Shown: piece after piece, positions 9,971 to 35,380 of the stretch
How the letters are laid out: each line of letters begins with the position of its first letter
How positions within the stretch are numbered: the first letter of the stretch is position 1
Source of the DNA: Bdellovibrionales bacterium
GTDB taxonomy: Bacteria > Bdellovibrionota > Bdellovibrionia > Bdellovibrionales > UBA1609
Direction: 5' to 3'
Assembly (NCBI GenBank): GCA_020630675.1
Contig: JAHDIR010000029.1
Location: 1-35,552 of the forward strand
Length of the DNA stretch: 35,552 nucleotides
Position numbers and translations under genes: made by a program
The notes under the pieces: model-generated
Told to the model about the DNA's origin: nothing
The model's database searches: none
The model's input: only the letters and a program-made list of their open reading frames with translations

Positions 9971-10972
9971 ATGGCATTTACATTTAACAGAGAACTTTTA
10001 TTTTTATTTTTCTTTACTCTATTTTCATCAATATATGTTGAGGGAAGCTCAGTAAATAGTGATAAACCTCAATCATCAGTTATGAGTGAAGTTATTCCTG
10101 CCGAAGAGGTTTTTAATACGAACGAATCACAAAAAAGCGTTGGATTACCTGAATTTAATGGACCTTTTAATTGGGATTTCGTTGCTGAGCAATCAAATCA
10201 ATACGCATTTTATACAGTTAGTTTCAATTACAGTATAGCAGAAAAAATAAAAAATAATGTAAAGTCATATATGTTAAATTGGGCAATAAATCACAGCAAT
10301 TTAATTAACATTAAAATTAATTTACAGGATAAAGGTTACAATGATAAAACCTTTTCTTTTCAAGCCTTTTTTGAAGGTATGCATCAAGCTACAATCTACA
10401 GTTATGGTACCTTTATTGAAGCTTACTTCTCGCTTTATGCTTATCGGGCGGACACTTACTGTAAGTTTGAGTGGATGATAGATGAGATTGATCAATCAAT
10501 TGAAATGATTTCTGACAATTGTTTACCAGCAAACCCTGATCTTTTTTCAGCCTCTGATTTTAATATTAACAATGAATACTCAAAGTTACTTGCCAAAGTG
10601 GATAAAGCGTCCGAAGAGTATGAATCTAGTTTCGAGGCAATGGAGCAATTCAGAAGACTTGAGCCTAGAATCTTAAGGCATATGATTGCTAATGGTCATT
10701 TTGATATTTCAAAATTTAAAGTATCCCTTAAAAAGAACTTTTCAGAATATTCAACAGAAAACTCAAGCCTACCAGATCAGGTAATACTAATTTTAACTTC
10801 TGACAGAGTGACTTGCGAGTTTAAAGAAGGGTTTGGAAAAATAAAAGAAGCCAAGAAAAAAAGGTCAGGCCGAAATAGCTTTAGAGGTGAGTTTATTTCT
10901 AAATTTGCTTTAAGTGATTTACGTGATGAAGTCACCTGTAAGGGGAATGATTTTGTATCGTCGGTGAGATAA
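9971..10972 (+). CDS. Secreted protein of unknown function, frame-disrupted end
   Basis: I do not recognise this 333-residue protein. It starts with a clear signal peptide (hydrophobic 9-22, likely cleavage near VEGSS) and has a good GAGGA ribosome site seven bases before the ATG. The mature part is mixed alpha/beta with several cysteines (near 158, 183, 284 and 323), so it is likely exported to the periplasm or beyond. The frame ends at 10972, but the -1 frame is open from 10951 to 11142 and reads like protein (…FDCIFKTEEVSIDETL…). The annotated C-terminus SSVR is therefore probably not natural: either an indel or a -1 frameshift joins the two frames. The gene is alone between tldE and a convergent barrel gene. 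Confidence 0.6.
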   Translation: MAFTFNRELLFLFFFTLFSSIYVEGSSVNSDKPQSSVMSEVIPAEEVFNTNESQKSVGLPEFNGPFNWDFVAEQSNQYAFYTVSFNYSIAEKIKNNVKSYMLNWAINHSNLINIKINLQDKGYNDKTFSFQAFFEGMHQATIYSYGTFIEAYFSLYAYRADTYCKFEWMIDEIDQSIEMISDNCLPANPDLFSASDFNINNEYSKLLAKVDKASEEYESSFEAMEQFRRLEPRILRHMIANGHFDISKFKVSLKKNFSEYSTENSSLPDQVILILTSDRVTCEFKEGFGKIKEAKKKRSGRNSFRGEFISKFALSDLRDEVTCKGNDFVSSVR

Positions 10973-17330: not shown

Positions 17331-17539
17331 TGGTCCTCCGGATCAAGCCCACCATTAAGTGCGAGCTCTAATCCATTTAAGTACCTTAAAAGACCTAAGA
17401 ACTCAAGGAAGTCAGGCTGGGCCTTTGCGACAGAAAAATATTCAAAAAACTGCTTTATTTTAGTAGGAGGTTTGAAATCATGATTTTCATATTGTATTGT
17501 GTCATTTTTGTTAACAAAAAGAGGTATAAGTGTCTGATA
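17327..17539 (-). other. Start-less coding-like frame coupled to the ABC gene
   Basis: Seventy sense codons are open up to a TGA that overlaps the ABC ATG (ATGA). The product reads like protein, for example PPTKIKQFFEYFSVAKAQPD and FLEFLGLLRYLNGLELALNG, then GLDPEDQ and stop. No ATG, GTG or TTG occurs in this frame; three ATGs (17505, 17490, 17481) lie in the neighbouring frame, which stops at 17455-17457. It is therefore either the surviving C-terminus of a decayed gene, a gene with a single-base error between 17455 and 17505, or a gene with an unusual start. Its upstream end reaches the divergent gene's start. Confidence 0.45.
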
Positions 17540-19263
17540 TTAATAATAAATTTAAGATATTTCTTTTTCCTTTGTTGCTTGTTGTGAGTCTTTTCTTTAC
17601 CAGCCAGTTACTCTTTGCATCAGACATAAGGACAAATTCTCTAACCAACGAAGTTTATCAGTCAGATTGTCCGACGAAGTATCGCTGTAAATACGTCGCT
17701 TTGAATCGTTCTGCCTCAAACTTGAGAAAAGATACAATAGAAACATTAGATAATAATGCCTCTGGTGGATACTTTAGACTTTCCAATTTATTAAGTACTA
17801 AAATTGAAATTGATAGTAGTGATTCCAACACTGTTGTCTTTACTTCTAGAGATTCGCAAGATCCAAATAAGTTAGCGAAGTGTGTCGACCCCAGACATGG
17901 TGCCGAAAGTGGTAAAATGATTTCGTGCATGGATGTGATTGATTACCTTTTACGTTTATATGACAAACCTGAATTGGCGAGGGGTGGCAATAATTCTTTT
18001 AGCGTTAAATTTGTTTTTTATGAATACGATGCCACGGCATCTAAGGGGTTTAACTTTGGCTTTAGCGGGTTTTCTGATCAATCCTCTGGAGGCTCAGAAA
18101 CAAAACCTGCCCGCGCAAGCGTGAACTCTTCAGGAGATAGTCAGTCGTTTGTTTTAAATGCTGGTAACCGATTGGCAGACCTGCTTTCTTTGCGCCTGAA
18201 CCTTGGGCAGCTTGGAGAATATGTTGAAAGTATATTTAGCCTAGAAACAACAATGCAAAATGGTCAACAGCTGTGGAACGAAAAGTTTGGAACCAGACAA
18301 TTTTATCTTAATTCCTCCAATTTTTCAGGAGGTATAACCTCTGAAATGGCTGGGTTTCGTTACTCGGGAAAAGTTGAGCGAGTTTCTGGGCAGAACGGTC
18401 AGAGCTTACTAAGAATCTCAAATTTTAATTATTACTATGCCGTTCCCACACAAGATACAAGCTCCAGTAACTCCGCTATCTCTTTAGTAAACGTTATTGA
18501 GAGTGGTGGTAGTATTCCTTGGAGCACTACAATAGAGCCTGGAAGGCCTTTTAAACTTTTTGAAATGAATGCCTCTGAATTTTCAAAAATAAGAAACACA
18601 GCCTTAGCTGGTATAAAAAGAAATAAAGCTTCAAAGGCCTCTAGTGTTATAGGTGTTCTTTATATAGAAGAATTAACAAATAGCTTTGGTGAAGATGATA
18701 CGAGCGATAGATTGGCCAGTGTAGCTAACTTTGATTTTGCCCGTTTATTTAATGACGCCACCATTCGTTATGAATCAAAACTTTTGGACACTGTGCCTTT
18801 AAATCTTCGTAGTGATCCTTCGACAAAAGTAATAGAAAATAATCAAAAAAATTACCTTTTATCTTCATACTTTTTTAAGCTAAATGAATCCGATTTAGAC
18901 CCTGGTATGGAACACACCTATGTTGAGTTATCTATTGTTGATGGTGGGCCAGTAGAGATGATTGGAGGAGTTCAAAAACTTAAGTTGGGACAATTAGCTA
19001 AAAAAGGAACACATATTGGTATTAAGCTTAAAGATAAGCTTGATATTAGGGAGCTGAAGTTTAAATTAAAAATAAGACTTTCCCGTTTTTATTATGACAA
19101 GGAAAGTTTATGGACAGATTTAAGTCAGATCGAAAGGGATTCTTCGGGAAAAGTCACTAAAGGTCCCACAAATATGTACATTTACCATATAAAGCATAAT
19201 TTAACTAATGGACGTAATGGTTTGAGTGCTAGCGAACGTTATGGCTTTATCGAAAAGTTTTAG
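17530..19263 (+). CDS. Exported protein, possibly secretin-like; unknown function
   Basis: A 577-residue protein that I cannot assign firmly. It has an N-terminal signal segment (hydrophobic about 10-29, LLFASD cleavage region) and starts at GTG with GAGG six bases upstream. Residues about 45-150 resemble a secretin N-domain (a beta-alpha pattern ending in DVIDYLLRLYDKPEL). The following FSVKFVFYEYDATASKGFNFGFSG resembles the strand entering a secretin barrel. The middle is Ser/Asn/Gly-rich with short amphipathic strands. No canonical secretin signature is clear, so this is a low-confidence idea. Two further exported proteins follow after 11 and 3 bases and look co-transcribed. Cysteines near 47, 53, 118 and 133 could form disulfides. 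Confidence 0.65.
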   Translation: MSDINNKFKIFLFPLLLVVSLFFTSQLLFASDIRTNSLTNEVYQSDCPTKYRCKYVALNRSASNLRKDTIETLDNNASGGYFRLSNLLSTKIEIDSSDSNTVVFTSRDSQDPNKLAKCVDPRHGAESGKMISCMDVIDYLLRLYDKPELARGGNNSFSVKFVFYEYDATASKGFNFGFSGFSDQSSGGSETKPARASVNSSGDSQSFVLNAGNRLADLLSLRLNLGQLGEYVESIFSLETTMQNGQQLWNEKFGTRQFYLNSSNFSGGITSEMAGFRYSGKVERVSGQNGQSLLRISNFNYYYAVPTQDTSSSNSAISLVNVIESGGSIPWSTTIEPGRPFKLFEMNASEFSKIRNTALAGIKRNKASKASSVIGVLYIEELTNSFGEDDTSDRLASVANFDFARLFNDATIRYESKLLDTVPLNLRSDPSTKVIENNQKNYLLSSYFFKLNESDLDPGMEHTYVELSIVDGGPVEMIGGVQKLKLGQLAKKGTHIGIKLKDKLDIRELKFKLKIRLSRFYYDKESLWTDLSQIERDSSGKVTKGPTNMYIYHIKHNLTNGRNGLSASERYGFIEKF

Positions 19264-19274
19264 TTTAAATAGTT

Positions 19275-20405
19275 ATGTTTAAATTTTTAATTGCCATTTT
19301 ATTTAATATTATTGTGTCTGTGGCACTGGCTGATCAGAGCAGGTCATGTAGTCTTGAAAATGAAATTCCGTGTAAAAATTTGGATGTTGTTGAGCGAGTC
19401 ATGCTTGATAGAGTTTGGTCACAAATTAAAGAGTTTGAAGATGAATGGTTTGGTTTATATTTTAAATTTTTACCACAAGTTGCTAACCAAAGGGGGGTTG
19501 AGTTTTTTTATGATCAACCCTTTGAAGTGTGTAAAAATAATGGTGTAGCTGTAGGTCAAGCTGTAGCTTCCTTAAAGTTAATTTTTTCTGTGCAAACCCC
19601 GAGTGAGCAAAAGTATCAAGTTTTGCATTCAGCCTGTGGTAATGAAGTCTTTTTTGTTGAGAGTTGGGTTATTCGTGGTCGAGGGTTACCACCTTTAGAT
19701 TGGAAAAAAATATTAATAGATCGACAACGTCAGTTTTCATTATCTAAAAATGAAACTTACAAAGAAGTAGAGTTTAGTTTGCCTGAAGCTCAATTTAACC
19801 CTACAGAAAAATCATTTTTTAAATTCGAGACTACGAAAGTTCCGTTTTTAGCCAAGTCAGTGTATCAAAGAAATATTGAAAAAATTGATGAGGTTAACTC
19901 TAAAAAAGAAGACTATATTTCTTCGGAACTGGCTTTGTTTGGTGAAAAAATATTAACATCTAAAAGAGATTTTATTAATAAACAGGCTCAATTTATTTTT
20001 TTGACTCCGTCATTGTTTTTTCGCCCTCGATCAAGAAGATTTTCTACTTCAGAATGTTTTTCTTCGGTGGTAAGTTACCGGTTTAATAAAGATCATCGTG
20101 AGATTATTTCGAGTGGTTCTAATAAACAGCTTGGACTTAGTCAGATTGAATTTAACAAGTGTTTGGATCAAGAAATCTTTCGCTATTTATCTTCGGCGAA
20201 TGAACTTTTACAGAATTATTATGATTTTTCTCGACCGGTTTTTGATGTGGGCAGAAGTCTAAATAAAAGTGCAGTTTTAAAGAATGAACTTTTGCAGTTG
20301 ATATCATTTATTCGCTCAGGAGTTACAACAAGAGCTGAGGGGTTGGTTCGCCAAATATTAATTAATGTTAATGAAGATGTGATAACTGATAAGCGAGTTG
20401 AGTAA
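19275..20405 (+). CDS. Exported protein of unknown function, second of three
   Basis: A 376-residue protein with a signal peptide (MFKFLIAILFNIIVSVALAD, cleavage after ALA). I recognise no domain. The N-terminal region carries several cysteines (CSLENEIPC near 25-33, C87, C120), compatible with disulfides in the periplasm. The C-terminal third is helical and charged (ANELLQNYYDFSRPVF… ELLQLISFIRSGVT). It starts 11 bases after the 577-residue gene and ends 3 bases before the next, so the three belong to one transcript. The ribosome site is weak, suggesting coupling to the upstream gene. A role in one envelope complex with its neighbours is inferred only from the operon. Confidence 0.6.
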   Translation: MFKFLIAILFNIIVSVALADQSRSCSLENEIPCKNLDVVERVMLDRVWSQIKEFEDEWFGLYFKFLPQVANQRGVEFFYDQPFEVCKNNGVAVGQAVASLKLIFSVQTPSEQKYQVLHSACGNEVFFVESWVIRGRGLPPLDWKKILIDRQRQFSLSKNETYKEVEFSLPEAQFNPTEKSFFKFETTKVPFLAKSVYQRNIEKIDEVNSKKEDYISSELALFGEKILTSKRDFINKQAQFIFLTPSLFFRPRSRRFSTSECFSSVVSYRFNKDHREIISSGSNKQLGLSQIEFNKCLDQEIFRYLSSANELLQNYYDFSRPVFDVGRSLNKSAVLKNELLQLISFIRSGVTTRAEGLVRQILINVNEDVITDKRVE

Positions 20406-21212: not shown

Positions 21213-22178
21213 TCATAAATTCTTATTTAAGAGCTTTTCGGCCTCAGAATCTACGCCCTTTAGTTGAAAGCGATCTATTTTTAATCTTCTTTTTCTTGAG
21301 CGTCTTGGGTTAATAATACGCCATTTTAATTCTGCTAAAATACTTTGTCCATTGGCGGTGTTGCTGCCGTTAATTGATTTTTCATACTTTAAATAAAATA
21401 AAAAGTTATTAAATATTCTCATGCCAGCCCATGCCTTCGCGTTCATAATGTTAGGGTTGACGGCGTAAAAGCGAAGGCTTCCGGCGTTGAATTGATCAGT
21501 TCGATTACTGCGAGTTTCTGGTGAATCGATAAATTCATCATCACTAATAATTTCCTGTCCCCATATTGAGCCACCGTAAAGGAAGCGGCCAATACTGTTG
21601 TATGCTCCCACTTCCCACGGGGCAAAGTGAGCTCGACCGTCCCCTTGGTAGGCATAAGCTGTATAGAAGTAAAATCTATGCTTTAAAAACTTTTTTTCTA
21701 CCCAAGCCCCAAATTCAACTCTCAAAGCTCCTTCATTTATAATAGCTTTGTCGTCATCAGGGTCAAAAGTCAGTATAGGTACCGATGTGCGAATTTGCGG
21801 TAGTAAGTAAAAAGACTTTGTGGCTAATTTGTAATAAAGACTAAAATTTGCATCGGTAACGGCTCCATTGGTTCTGGTGGCGGTAGAGGTTTCACTTTTT
21901 CCGTAGGCATAAGTTAGGCCAGTGGACAAGCCGACTTTATTTGTTAAACCATAAGTAAAACTGGGTTTAGCCGCTATGTATGTGAATTTATTATCATTGG
22001 GTAAACTCTCAAAAGAGCCCCCTTGCTTGTCATAGTTAGAGTCAGTAGTGTAGAACTCAGTAATTAGGCTTCCTTTGAGTTGCCCTTTTCTAAACTTAGG
22101 TGGCGTTGCAGCAAGCCCAGAGGCTGAGCTTATTAATATAGAAAATATAGTGTATAAAATGAGAAATTTTTTCGACAT
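21213..22178 (-). CDS. Outer-membrane beta-barrel-like protein
   Basis: A 321-residue exported protein with a signal peptide (hydrophobic 5-22, cleavage near GLAATP). It has the alternating strand pattern of transporter-type outer membrane barrels: KVGLSTGLTYAYGKS, ANFSLYYKLATKSFYLLPQI, RVEFGAWVEKKFLKHRFYFY and FNNFLFYLKYEKS. After residue about 295 comes a basic tail (RRSRKRRLKIDRFQLKG) that is unlike a terminal barrel strand and would stay periplasmic or outside. The function is unknown. It diverges from the MFS permease over a 24-base gap, with a perfect TATAAT placed so that its message would begin at or next to the ATG; there is no ribosome site. Confidence 0.6.
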   Translation of the reverse strand: MSKKFLILYTIFSILISSASGLAATPPKFRKGQLKGSLITEFYTTDSNYDKQGGSFESLPNDNKFTYIAAKPSFTYGLTNKVGLSTGLTYAYGKSETSTATRTNGAVTDANFSLYYKLATKSFYLLPQIRTSVPILTFDPDDDKAIINEGALRVEFGAWVEKKFLKHRFYFYTAYAYQGDGRAHFAPWEVGAYNSIGRFLYGGSIWGQEIISDDEFIDSPETRSNRTDQFNAGSLRFYAVNPNIMNAKAWAGMRIFNNFLFYLKYEKSINGSNTANGQSILAELKWRIINPRRSRKRRLKIDRFQLKGVDSEAEKLLNKNL

Positions 22179-29342: not shown

Positions 29343-30281
29343 TTAACTCAGGCCAATCTCTTTTAGTCTCTCCATTAAGAAGTCATGAGACAAAATGTCT
29401 GGATATTTTTGCTGACCATTTTCACACGATTCGATGCAAGAAAGCATGGCTTGCGGATGTGGGTGAATAAAAAACGGCATAGAATACCGACTTTTATTAG
29501 CCCCTTTAGGGTTAACCACTCGGTGAGTTGTAGAAGGGATGACTTCGTTGGTAATGCGAGAAAGCATATCACCGGCATCAACAATCAAGTTATTTTTATC
29601 TGTTTCTACTGGTAGCCATTGCCCATCACGGTCGAGAAGCTCCAATCCAGAGGTCGTTGCACTGACAAGAATAGTTATTAAGTTAATATCTTCATGGGCT
29701 GCTGCGCGAACACAGTTAGGGTCAGTTCCTTCTGGAATAGGAGGGTAGTGAAGAAGCCGCAAAATGGAGTTGCCGTCAGAAATCATGTCTGAGAAATAAT
29801 GATTGGGAATATCAAGAGAGTGAGTTAATGCAGAAAGTAGGCTTTGTCCCACTCCCTCTAAAGATTTAAATATATTTGTAAATGTATTTTTAAATTCAGG
29901 GAGTTCTTGAGGCCAAATATTATCGGGATACAAATTAGAGAATTTGTGATTATTCTCTAAAATTTGACCAACATGCCAAAACTCTTTGAGATCAGGAAAT
30001 TTATTATTTTTAGCATGCTCTTTACCAAAAGGGGTGTAGCCGCGTTGTCCAGCCCCAGCTTGACTGATATAACCAGACTTTATAGTCTCAGGTAACTCAA
30101 ATAAAGATTGGCACAGTTCATAGGCTTTATCTAATAAAGGAACGGGGACCGGGTGATCTTTAATAATAATAAAGCCGTAGTACTTTAAGCCTTCAAACAA
30201 CTCTTTTACAAACTGTTCTCTATCTTTATTATTTCCATCGGTATATTGATCCAGACTGAGTTCAGGCACTTTTTCTAACAC
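29343..30281 (-). CDS. 2-oxoglutarate/Fe(II) oxygenase, IPNS-like family
   Basis: A cytoplasmic non-haem iron dioxygenase of the isopenicillin N synthase-like family, 312 residues. The N-terminal DIOX_N region is present (LFEGLKYYGFIIIKDHPVP), and the jelly-roll carries the iron triad H196-x-D198 (AHEDINLITIL) and H253 (STTHRV), with R265 and S267 (RYSMPFF) binding the 2-oxoglutarate carboxylate. That RxS pair favours a 2-oxoglutarate-dependent reaction rather than penicillin synthesis. The substrate is unknown and no natural-product cluster is around it. Start is GTG at 30281 with a five-G ribosome site five bases upstream. It diverges from rnr. Confidence 0.9.
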   Translation of the reverse strand: MLEKVPELSLDQYTDGNNKDREQFVKELFEGLKYYGFIIIKDHPVPVPLLDKAYELCQSLFELPETIKSGYISQAGAGQRGYTPFGKEHAKNNKFPDLKEFWHVGQILENNHKFSNLYPDNIWPQELPEFKNTFTNIFKSLEGVGQSLLSALTHSLDIPNHYFSDMISDGNSILRLLHYPPIPEGTDPNCVRAAAHEDINLITILVSATTSGLELLDRDGQWLPVETDKNNLIVDAGDMLSRITNEVIPSTTHRVVNPKGANKSRYSMPFFIHPHPQAMLSCIESCENGQQKYPDILSHDFLMERLKEIGLS

Positions 30282-33478: not shown

Positions 33479-35380
33479 ATGTTTAATAAATCAAAAATAT
33501 TAGTGGCCATATTTATATCATTAGTTGCCATGTTTTTCTTTAACAACTGTGGGAAATTTAGTGAGTCTGAAAACAACACCTTAGAAAGCCGACTCTTCTC
33601 AAAAACAACGAACGAGTACAAAGAATTAAAAGTAGCCCTTATGGGAGATACGGATATTCATGAAAAATTTACCCAAGGACTCGAACTGGCAAAAAGAGAA
33701 GGCACCGAGGTTATGATGATCAATGGTGATTTTGCTTATGCAGAAGATGGGCTGTCAGATGTTGAAACAGTTTATGCTTGGCGAGATCGTATTGAAAGAT
33801 CTATCGACTTTAACCAAATATCTGTAATTGGTAGTGTTGGAAACCATGATATTGATAAGAAAGATCAGCTTGGTCATAACGGTGAAATGCTACATCGTTA
33901 TATAAAATATTTTGGTCGATTTAGAAACAGTCAAAATCAGTTAAACGAAAAATGCACGGGACAGAGTGAAATTAGGCAAGACAGAGACGTGATGCTTATG
34001 AATGAAGTTTGTACCTTTGGCAACGTTAGTATTGTCGCCAGTGCCATAGGAATTACTGAGGTTTTTCCTGACAGTTTTTATGAAAATGAGTTGAAAAAAA
34101 AACTTTCTCAAATGCCAACAGAAAATTGGAAGCTAGCAGGTTATCACTACACATTAAAGTCCATGAATATGGCAGGAAAAGGAGATCAAACAACACATAC
34201 TTTTTTTGACATTATTCGCCAACAGGGGGCTATAGGAGTTCAGGCACATACTCATACGGCCATGGCTTCTTGTCCTATTGGAGGCCGGTTTGCTGAAAAT
34301 AGTCCTGTTCGTTGTTTAGCTAATTTTGAAAATGACGTTTATAATAGATATATTGAACCAGGAATTGGAATTTATTTAGATTCATCTGTTTCAGGACGTG
34401 ATGTAAGGGACAGAAAAGGCTGTAGCAATGAAGGTTCGAGTAATTGTGATCATCTATACGATTACATCAGTTATGAGGGCTATCATATAAAAAATGGAGC
34501 ACCAAAAAATATTGGAAGTCGTGATGGTATTCTTTTTGTCGATTTTAATAAGGGGGGAGACCCTTCCAAGGCCTATGTTTACTTTAAAAACTTTAGTGGT
34601 AATGTAATTTTTGACTTTGTTATTCATCGAAATGTAGCCAACAGTAACTCTGATAACTCAGGCAATGCCTCGGGGCCCTTATCGGCTATAAATAATGGTC
34701 AGTATAGAGGCGAAGCCAACGGTAGAGTGTTAACCAAAGTTTCTGATAACCTTGCTTGTCGTCCACAAACACTTTACGGAGTTATCACTAATAAAGTCAT
34801 TTATGACCAACTGAGCGCAAAGTACGATAAAGAAGCTTGTGAAAGTGGTGTATCCACCGGCCAAGAGAGCGATAATACGGCAAACAATAGTAATGGCAGC
34901 AGTTCTGGTGGTAGTAACTCAGGAAGTTCATCAGGCTCTGGAAATAGTGAAACTGGGGCATTGAGTGGGGTTGATCAAGGACATTATAGAGAAACTGTAA
35001 ATGGTCGAATATTAACCAAAGTTTCTGAGACACTAGCCTGTAAGCCAAGTGCCCCTTATGAAGTAAAAACAAATAAAGCTATATATGAAAAATTAAGTGC
35101 TGCCTATAACAGAGAAGCTTGTCAAAATATTGATTCAAATTTGGTGACAAACAACAATAACTCTACAGAAGCAACACCCTCCTCAGGTCGTAATTTAGCG
35201 AGCGTTGATCTTGGTCACTATTGGGAAAGAGTGAATGGTCGAGTTTTAACTAAAATCTCTGACTCTTTAGCTTGTAGCCCGAGATCACCTTCGGCAGTAA
35301 AAGTCAGTAAAGAGATATATGATCTTTTAGATCAAAAATATAATAAAGCTGCTTGCTCTAGCGTTAGCGGACATAAGTAA
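33479..35380 (+). CDS. Metallophosphoesterase lipoprotein with three C-terminal repeats
   Basis: A 633-residue exported protein. The signal peptide ends in FFNNC, a lipobox-like site with C24, so it is probably lipid-anchored. Residues about 50-385 form a calcineurin-like phosphoesterase: D59-x-H61 (GDTDIH), G83-D84 (NGDFAY), GNHD at 121-124, H223 (GYHYT) and H257-x-H259 (QAHTHT). The substrate is unknown. The C-terminal part has three 48-residue modules (407-454, 501-548, 579-626), each with cysteines at module positions 21 and 48, joined by Ser/Asn/Gly-rich linkers. The modules may bind a ligand or surface. GGGGAG lies eight bases before the ATG. It is monocistronic with a 268-base upstream region and no identified partner. 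Confidence 0.85.
   Translation: MFNKSKILVAIFISLVAMFFFNNCGKFSESENNTLESRLFSKTTNEYKELKVALMGDTDIHEKFTQGLELAKREGTEVMMINGDFAYAEDGLSDVETVYAWRDRIERSIDFNQISVIGSVGNHDIDKKDQLGHNGEMLHRYIKYFGRFRNSQNQLNEKCTGQSEIRQDRDVMLMNEVCTFGNVSIVASAIGITEVFPDSFYENELKKKLSQMPTENWKLAGYHYTLKSMNMAGKGDQTTHTFFDIIRQQGAIGVQAHTHTAMASCPIGGRFAENSPVRCLANFENDVYNRYIEPGIGIYLDSSVSGRDVRDRKGCSNEGSSNCDHLYDYISYEGYHIKNGAPKNIGSRDGILFVDFNKGGDPSKAYVYFKNFSGNVIFDFVIHRNVANSNSDNSGNASGPLSAINNGQYRGEANGRVLTKVSDNLACRPQTLYGVITNKVIYDQLSAKYDKEACESGVSTGQESDNTANNSNGSSSGGSNSGSSSGSGNSETGALSGVDQGHYRETVNGRILTKVSETLACKPSAPYEVKTNKAIYEKLSAAYNREACQNIDSNLVTNNNNSTEATPSSGRNLASVDLGHYWERVNGRVLTKISDSLACSPRSPSAVKVSKEIYDLLDQKYNKAACSSVSGHK
34697..34840 (+). repeat. 48-residue Cys-pair module, copy 1 (coding repeat)
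   Basis: Residues 407-454 of the phosphoesterase lipoprotein. Begins GQYRGEANGRVLTKVSDNLA, with cysteines at module positions 21 and 48. Followed by a 46-residue low-complexity Ser/Gly/Asn linker. Confidence 0.85.
34979..35122 (+). repeat. 48-residue Cys-pair module, copy 2 (coding repeat)
   Basis: Residues 501-548. Begins GHYRETVNGRILTKVSETLA, cysteines at module positions 21 and 48 with no insertion or deletion relative to copy 1. Followed by a 30-residue linker. Confidence 0.85.
35213..35356 (+). repeat. 48-residue Cys-pair module, copy 3 (coding repeat)
   Basis: Residues 579-626. Begins GHYWERVNGRVLTKISDSLA, cysteines at module positions 21 and 48. Ends seven residues before the C-terminus. 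Confidence 0.85.

Follow-up and report, generated by a model that had tools for sequence, protein, structure and literature searches.

The window analyzed here, a 35,552-nucleotide stretch of a Bdellovibrionales contig (G000:C52), ends with a forward-strand gene (33479 to 35380), the last on the contig, whose open reading frame and translation give a 633-residue putative lipoprotein made up of a signal peptide, a metallophosphoesterase domain resembling purple acid phosphatases (PAPs), and three C-terminal copies of a small two-cysteine module. Its G+C content (37.6%) is similar to that of the rest of the window (36.7%). Membership of the organism in Bdellovibrionales agrees with protein sequence matches of the genomes assigned to its family (G016) and order (G119) to named Bdellovibrionales/Bdellovibrionia MAG contigs. 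The signal peptide (33479 to 33550, forward strand; MFNKSKILVAIFISLVAMFFFNNC) ends in a lipobox-like FNNC with the presumably lipidated cysteine at residue 24; this motif differs from the classical lipobox [LVI][ASTVI][GAS]C, but the same atypical FNNCG occurs at a second lipoprotein-like N terminus in the genome (L042:7524-8000), and we infer that the protein is probably lipid anchored in the cell envelope. Elsewhere in the window, open reading frames of 577, 376, 321, and 333 amino acids (17530 to 20405, 21213 to 22178, and 9971 to 10972) gave no Pfam match at an E value of 1e-4, and a reverse-strand gene (29343 to 30281) encodes a 2-oxoglutarate/Fe(II) dioxygenase with a DIOX_N domain, which is best known from plants.

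The enzyme domain (33620 to 34630, forward strand; approximately residues 48 to 384) was identified by alignment with 12 homologues, by Foldseek, by a PHROGs match to metallo-phosphoesterase (E value of 3.4e-4), and by the presence of PF00149 in its homologues. It carries the PAP-type motifs GDTD (D57), GDFAY (D84 and Y87), GNHD (N122), AGYH (H223), and AHTH (H257 and H259), with the metal center motifs defined as in PMC6515233, and all seven metal ligands (D57, D84, Y87, N122, H223, H257, and H259) are invariant in the 13 aligned sequences, that is, the query and its 12 homologues. In the full-length AlphaFold2 model, the enzyme core is well predicted, with many 10-residue blocks at pLDDT values of 74 to 91, and the best 11 Foldseek matches of the model are all PAPs or PAP phytases (E values of 2.6e-10 to 1.2e-07), led by wheat phytase (6gja_A, 2.6e-10) and human PAP (1war, 2.9e-10). 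Judged by its motifs and its predicted fold, the enzyme is a PAP-like metallophosphoesterase with a full set of metal ligands, and it is therefore plausibly active. The earlier note had called the protein a secreted phosphoesterase, a description that the lipobox-like N terminus and the calcineurin/PAP-type active site bear out. Pfam PF00149 (calcineurin-like phosphoesterase) did not match this protein at E values of up to 1, but homologues at 26 to 30% identity do match it, two of them at 1e-07 and 5.9e-09; by sequence, the enzyme thus appears to belong to PF00149 by descent and to have diverged too far for the Pfam model to recognize it.

Relatives of the enzyme occur in 3 other genomes among 369 of the phylum, and 16 homologous loci were found across Bdellovibrionota, Rokuibacteriota, Acidobacteria, Chloroflexi, Patescibacteria, and other groups; searches for the whole protein in phages and plasmids returned none. 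These secreted bacterial metallophosphoesterases, which start with DLKVAFIGDxGxG, share the enzyme domain over about 330 residues (21 to 26% identity in the best segments) but differ in their tails, which are short or bear other domains: none of the 16 carries the module. The module is therefore a detachable accessory that would take no part in catalysis, and on this sequence comparison the modules are an addition to a widespread enzyme.

A short Asn/Ser-rich linker leads from the enzyme to the modules, all on the forward strand. Copy 1 (34697 to 34840) spans residues 407 to 454 with Cys427 and Cys454, copy 2 (34979 to 35122) spans residues 501 to 548 with Cys521 and Cys548, and copy 3 (35213 to 35356) spans residues 579 to 626 with Cys599 and Cys626, ending 7 residues before the end of the protein. 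Every copy measures exactly 48 residues from its first glycine to its second cysteine, and the cysteines always stand at module positions 21 and 48, 27 residues apart. The three modules of fixed length and register that the earlier note described are thus real, and so is the variation it reported in the linkers: 46 residues between copies 1 and 2 (34841 to 34978; 15 Ser, 10 Gly, and 6 Asn) and 30 Asn/Ser/Thr-rich residues between copies 2 and 3 (35123 to 35212). The sequence pattern that it proposed holds overall, except for the spacing before NGR, which is three residues and not five (G-x-Y-[RW]-x3-N-G-R). Pairwise identity among the modules is 26 to 29 of 48 residues, and the similarity is far from chance, because the pair alignments score 26 to 34 standard deviations above shuffled sequence and none of 2,000 shuffles reaches them. 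Among the residues kept are NGR, LTK, LAC, and Y-x2-L-x3-Y. The similarity begins 4 to 6 residues upstream of the first glycine (LSAINN, LSGVDQ, and LASVDL in copies 1, 2, and 3), so that the last six or so residues of each intermodule linker belong to the conserved unit, which is therefore about 54 residues long.

At the DNA level, the copies are only 60 to 66% identical, with 44 to 48% agreement at third codon positions, and Tandem Repeats Finder detected no tandem array. Nei-Gojobori (NG86) estimates of dS for the three module pairs are 1.8, saturated, and 1.1, compared to dN values of 0.29 to 0.36, which indicates that each copy is held by purifying selection. The duplications are old, and each copy has been kept under purifying selection since. 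The suggestion of a recent tandem duplication in the earlier note falls on this divergence and on the missing DNA-level array. That the copies lie head to tail in one gene is what a recent expansion with no retained function would produce, but synonymous divergence near saturation and a dN/dS ratio well below 1 leave such an origin next to no probability.

The earlier note did not recognize the module as a named domain, and neither did our searches: Pfam, NCBIfam, PHROGs, PADLOC, and PDB sequences gave no meaningful match. The sole named weak match was DUF2706 (PF10913), and we rejected membership because the score of 13.8 bits lies under the gathering threshold of 25 and the match covers only 15 residues; searched in isolation, one module copy matched it with an E value of 0.0042. 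PDB sequence matches to IST1 had E values above 1 and were likewise discarded. Searches with a profile hidden Markov model (HMM) of the module across the family, order, and phylum (368 other genomes, those of the same genus included) found no other carrier; outside its own genome, the profile gave weak, partial matches only (E values of at least 0.0046), and those that were read proved to be stop-containing frames, matches on the other strand of genes with no relation to the module, or proteins of other kinds, UvrA-like ATPases among them. Pattern scans of 84,980 species, which used short patterns, and of viral contigs produced candidates and no relative, and a literature search for the module found nothing. 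The module may nevertheless be distributed more widely, beyond the genomes searched.

One short look-alike came from a relative (G068), in which probably phage-fibre-like open reading frames (L014/L041 and L040) carry a repeated 'CANGKILKKVSGSWAC' motif that resembles NGRxLTKxSxxLAC with an E value of 0.008. About 23 residues match, within the first half of the module, but its second half has no counterpart there. We therefore did not accept this repeat as a relative, and by sequence the likeness is probably convergent.

Within its own genome, the module has a probable fourth copy. The top non-self match of the three-copy profile lies at the C terminus of a 564-residue secreted protein (L042:4032-5723, reverse strand; G000:C107), where a diverged two-cysteine module reads SLSQVSYRQYKNTLHGMVLKKTSNSSAC...YALLLQAYQNQGQPNCP. 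Its E value of 0.18 proves nothing alone, but several features that played no part in its detection point the same way: LS is kept upstream, the copy stands in frame at the end of the open reading frame after an acidic, Asn-rich linker, and Y-x2-L-x3-Y is followed by a penultimate cysteine, a combination of motif and later cysteine seen in a fraction of 0.0025 of shuffles. The ungapped first half shares 11 of 28 residues with the module (z score of 7.8), hhalign pairs both halves with it (P value of 1.4e-4), and the second half by itself shows no significant similarity in local alignment. A strict motif, drawn from all four copies and so including the diverged one, matched exactly four places in this genome, the four copies, and three elsewhere among 140 genomes, all three of which carry an in-frame stop codon. 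On these sequence comparisons, we consider homology of the fourth copy to the module to be well favored. Because the only other copy found is diverged and sits, within this one genome, on a secreted protein unrelated to the phosphatase, the module looks lineage restricted and has likely moved between the two proteins. Its treatment as a discrete unit in the earlier note gains from this second carrier, for which a search of 46 further genomes from the family found no homologue.

The position of the copies bears on the idea that the module is a sorting or export tag, a C-terminal signal read by sorting or secretion machinery of the envelope, the additional copies being mere duplicates. Copy 3 and the diverged copy do lie at the extreme C terminus of their proteins. 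Yet copies 1 and 2 are internal, and a tag of general use would be expected on a large number of secreted proteins, whereas the HMM search found just two carriers in the genome; we regard a tag as improbable. Slightly less so, but still quite unlikely, is a role in assembly, in which the cysteines would bond between modules or chains, or bind metal or heme, and so join proteins into a complex. All six module cysteines of the phosphatase are invariant, and the gene of the 564-residue carrier adjoins a cytochrome-c-peroxidase-like gene, as such a role might lead one to expect; against it, the module contains no CXXC or heme motif, and a single pair of cysteines at fixed positions in every module is most simply read as an internal bond.

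Structure prediction gave no usable model of the module. AlphaFold2 on the module alone, with four sequences, reached a mean pLDDT of 47 and placed a beta-hairpin that turns at NG, a short helix that runs up to C21, and a further helix spanning K-x-I-Y-x2-L-x3-Y, whereas the full-length model, built without module homologues, shows all-helical hairpins with the cysteines near opposite ends (pLDDT mostly 29 to 64). The two models disagree on secondary structure, and a Foldseek search with the module model found nothing, as expected at this confidence. Such low confidence, together with the alternation of the modules with low-complexity linkers, would suit a spacer or stalk that merely extends the enzyme from the membrane and binds nothing specific. 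Nevertheless, the strong retention of NGR, LTK, LAC, and Y-x2-L-x3-Y over saturating synonymous time exceeds what a spacer needs, and the diverged copy is terminal and spaces nothing on its protein, so we hold a pure spacer to be unlikely.

The reading that we prefer, tentatively and at somewhat less than an even chance, is that a surface phosphatase carries the modules as accessory binding domains, each on a flexible tether and closed by a disulfide. That the register stays exact and the cysteines invariant while the linkers vary speaks in favor of a domain, and Ser/Gly/Asn low-complexity linkers are typical of flexible tethers. A lipid-anchored PAP-like phosphatase would then be displayed on the cell envelope with three small accessory domains on such linkers. 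Each would fold compactly over its roughly 54 residues and be closed by a disulfide that links the two invariant cysteines within the module, and, to go by the architecture, the repeated domains may attach to a polymer at a surface or to material that bears the substrate (a glycan, a phosphorylated polymer, or the surface of prey or particles). With several such domains, avidity would rise and the phosphatase would act near its substrate. A bolder proposal, which we consider conceivable but doubtful, is that the module is the first member to be seen of a new, lineage-born family of small disulfide domains. Such a family would have passed from one secreted protein to another within a single Bdellovibrionales lineage and would direct enzymes to a specific surface, which may be that of prey. 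Should the module prove to be a genuine small binding domain, an orphan by sequence with four copies on two proteins of one genome, it would suit the study of how small disulfide domains originate and are reused.

Compared to known systems, the enzyme shares its predicted fold and all seven metal ligands with PAPs such as wheat phytase (6GJA) and human PAP (1WAR), but it differs from them in its low identity (12 to 15%), in the C-terminal modules, and in two motif glycines that are replaced in motifs I and V (GDXG to GDTD and GHXH to AHTH). It would provide an example of a PAP-type phosphatase that has acquired tethers specific to its lineage. Other secreted enzymes are held close to their substrates by tandem carbohydrate- or cell-wall-binding modules. 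Our searches related the modules described here to no such family by sequence, and the sequence is an orphan across all the collections covered, but they resemble those modules in occurring in several copies, at the C terminus, on Ser/Gly/Asn linkers, and as discrete conserved units. The layout of a secreted enzyme with tandem C-terminal accessory modules is already known, and because this principle is so well established, we see the importance of the present case as moderate: a familiar architecture, here built from an orphan module.
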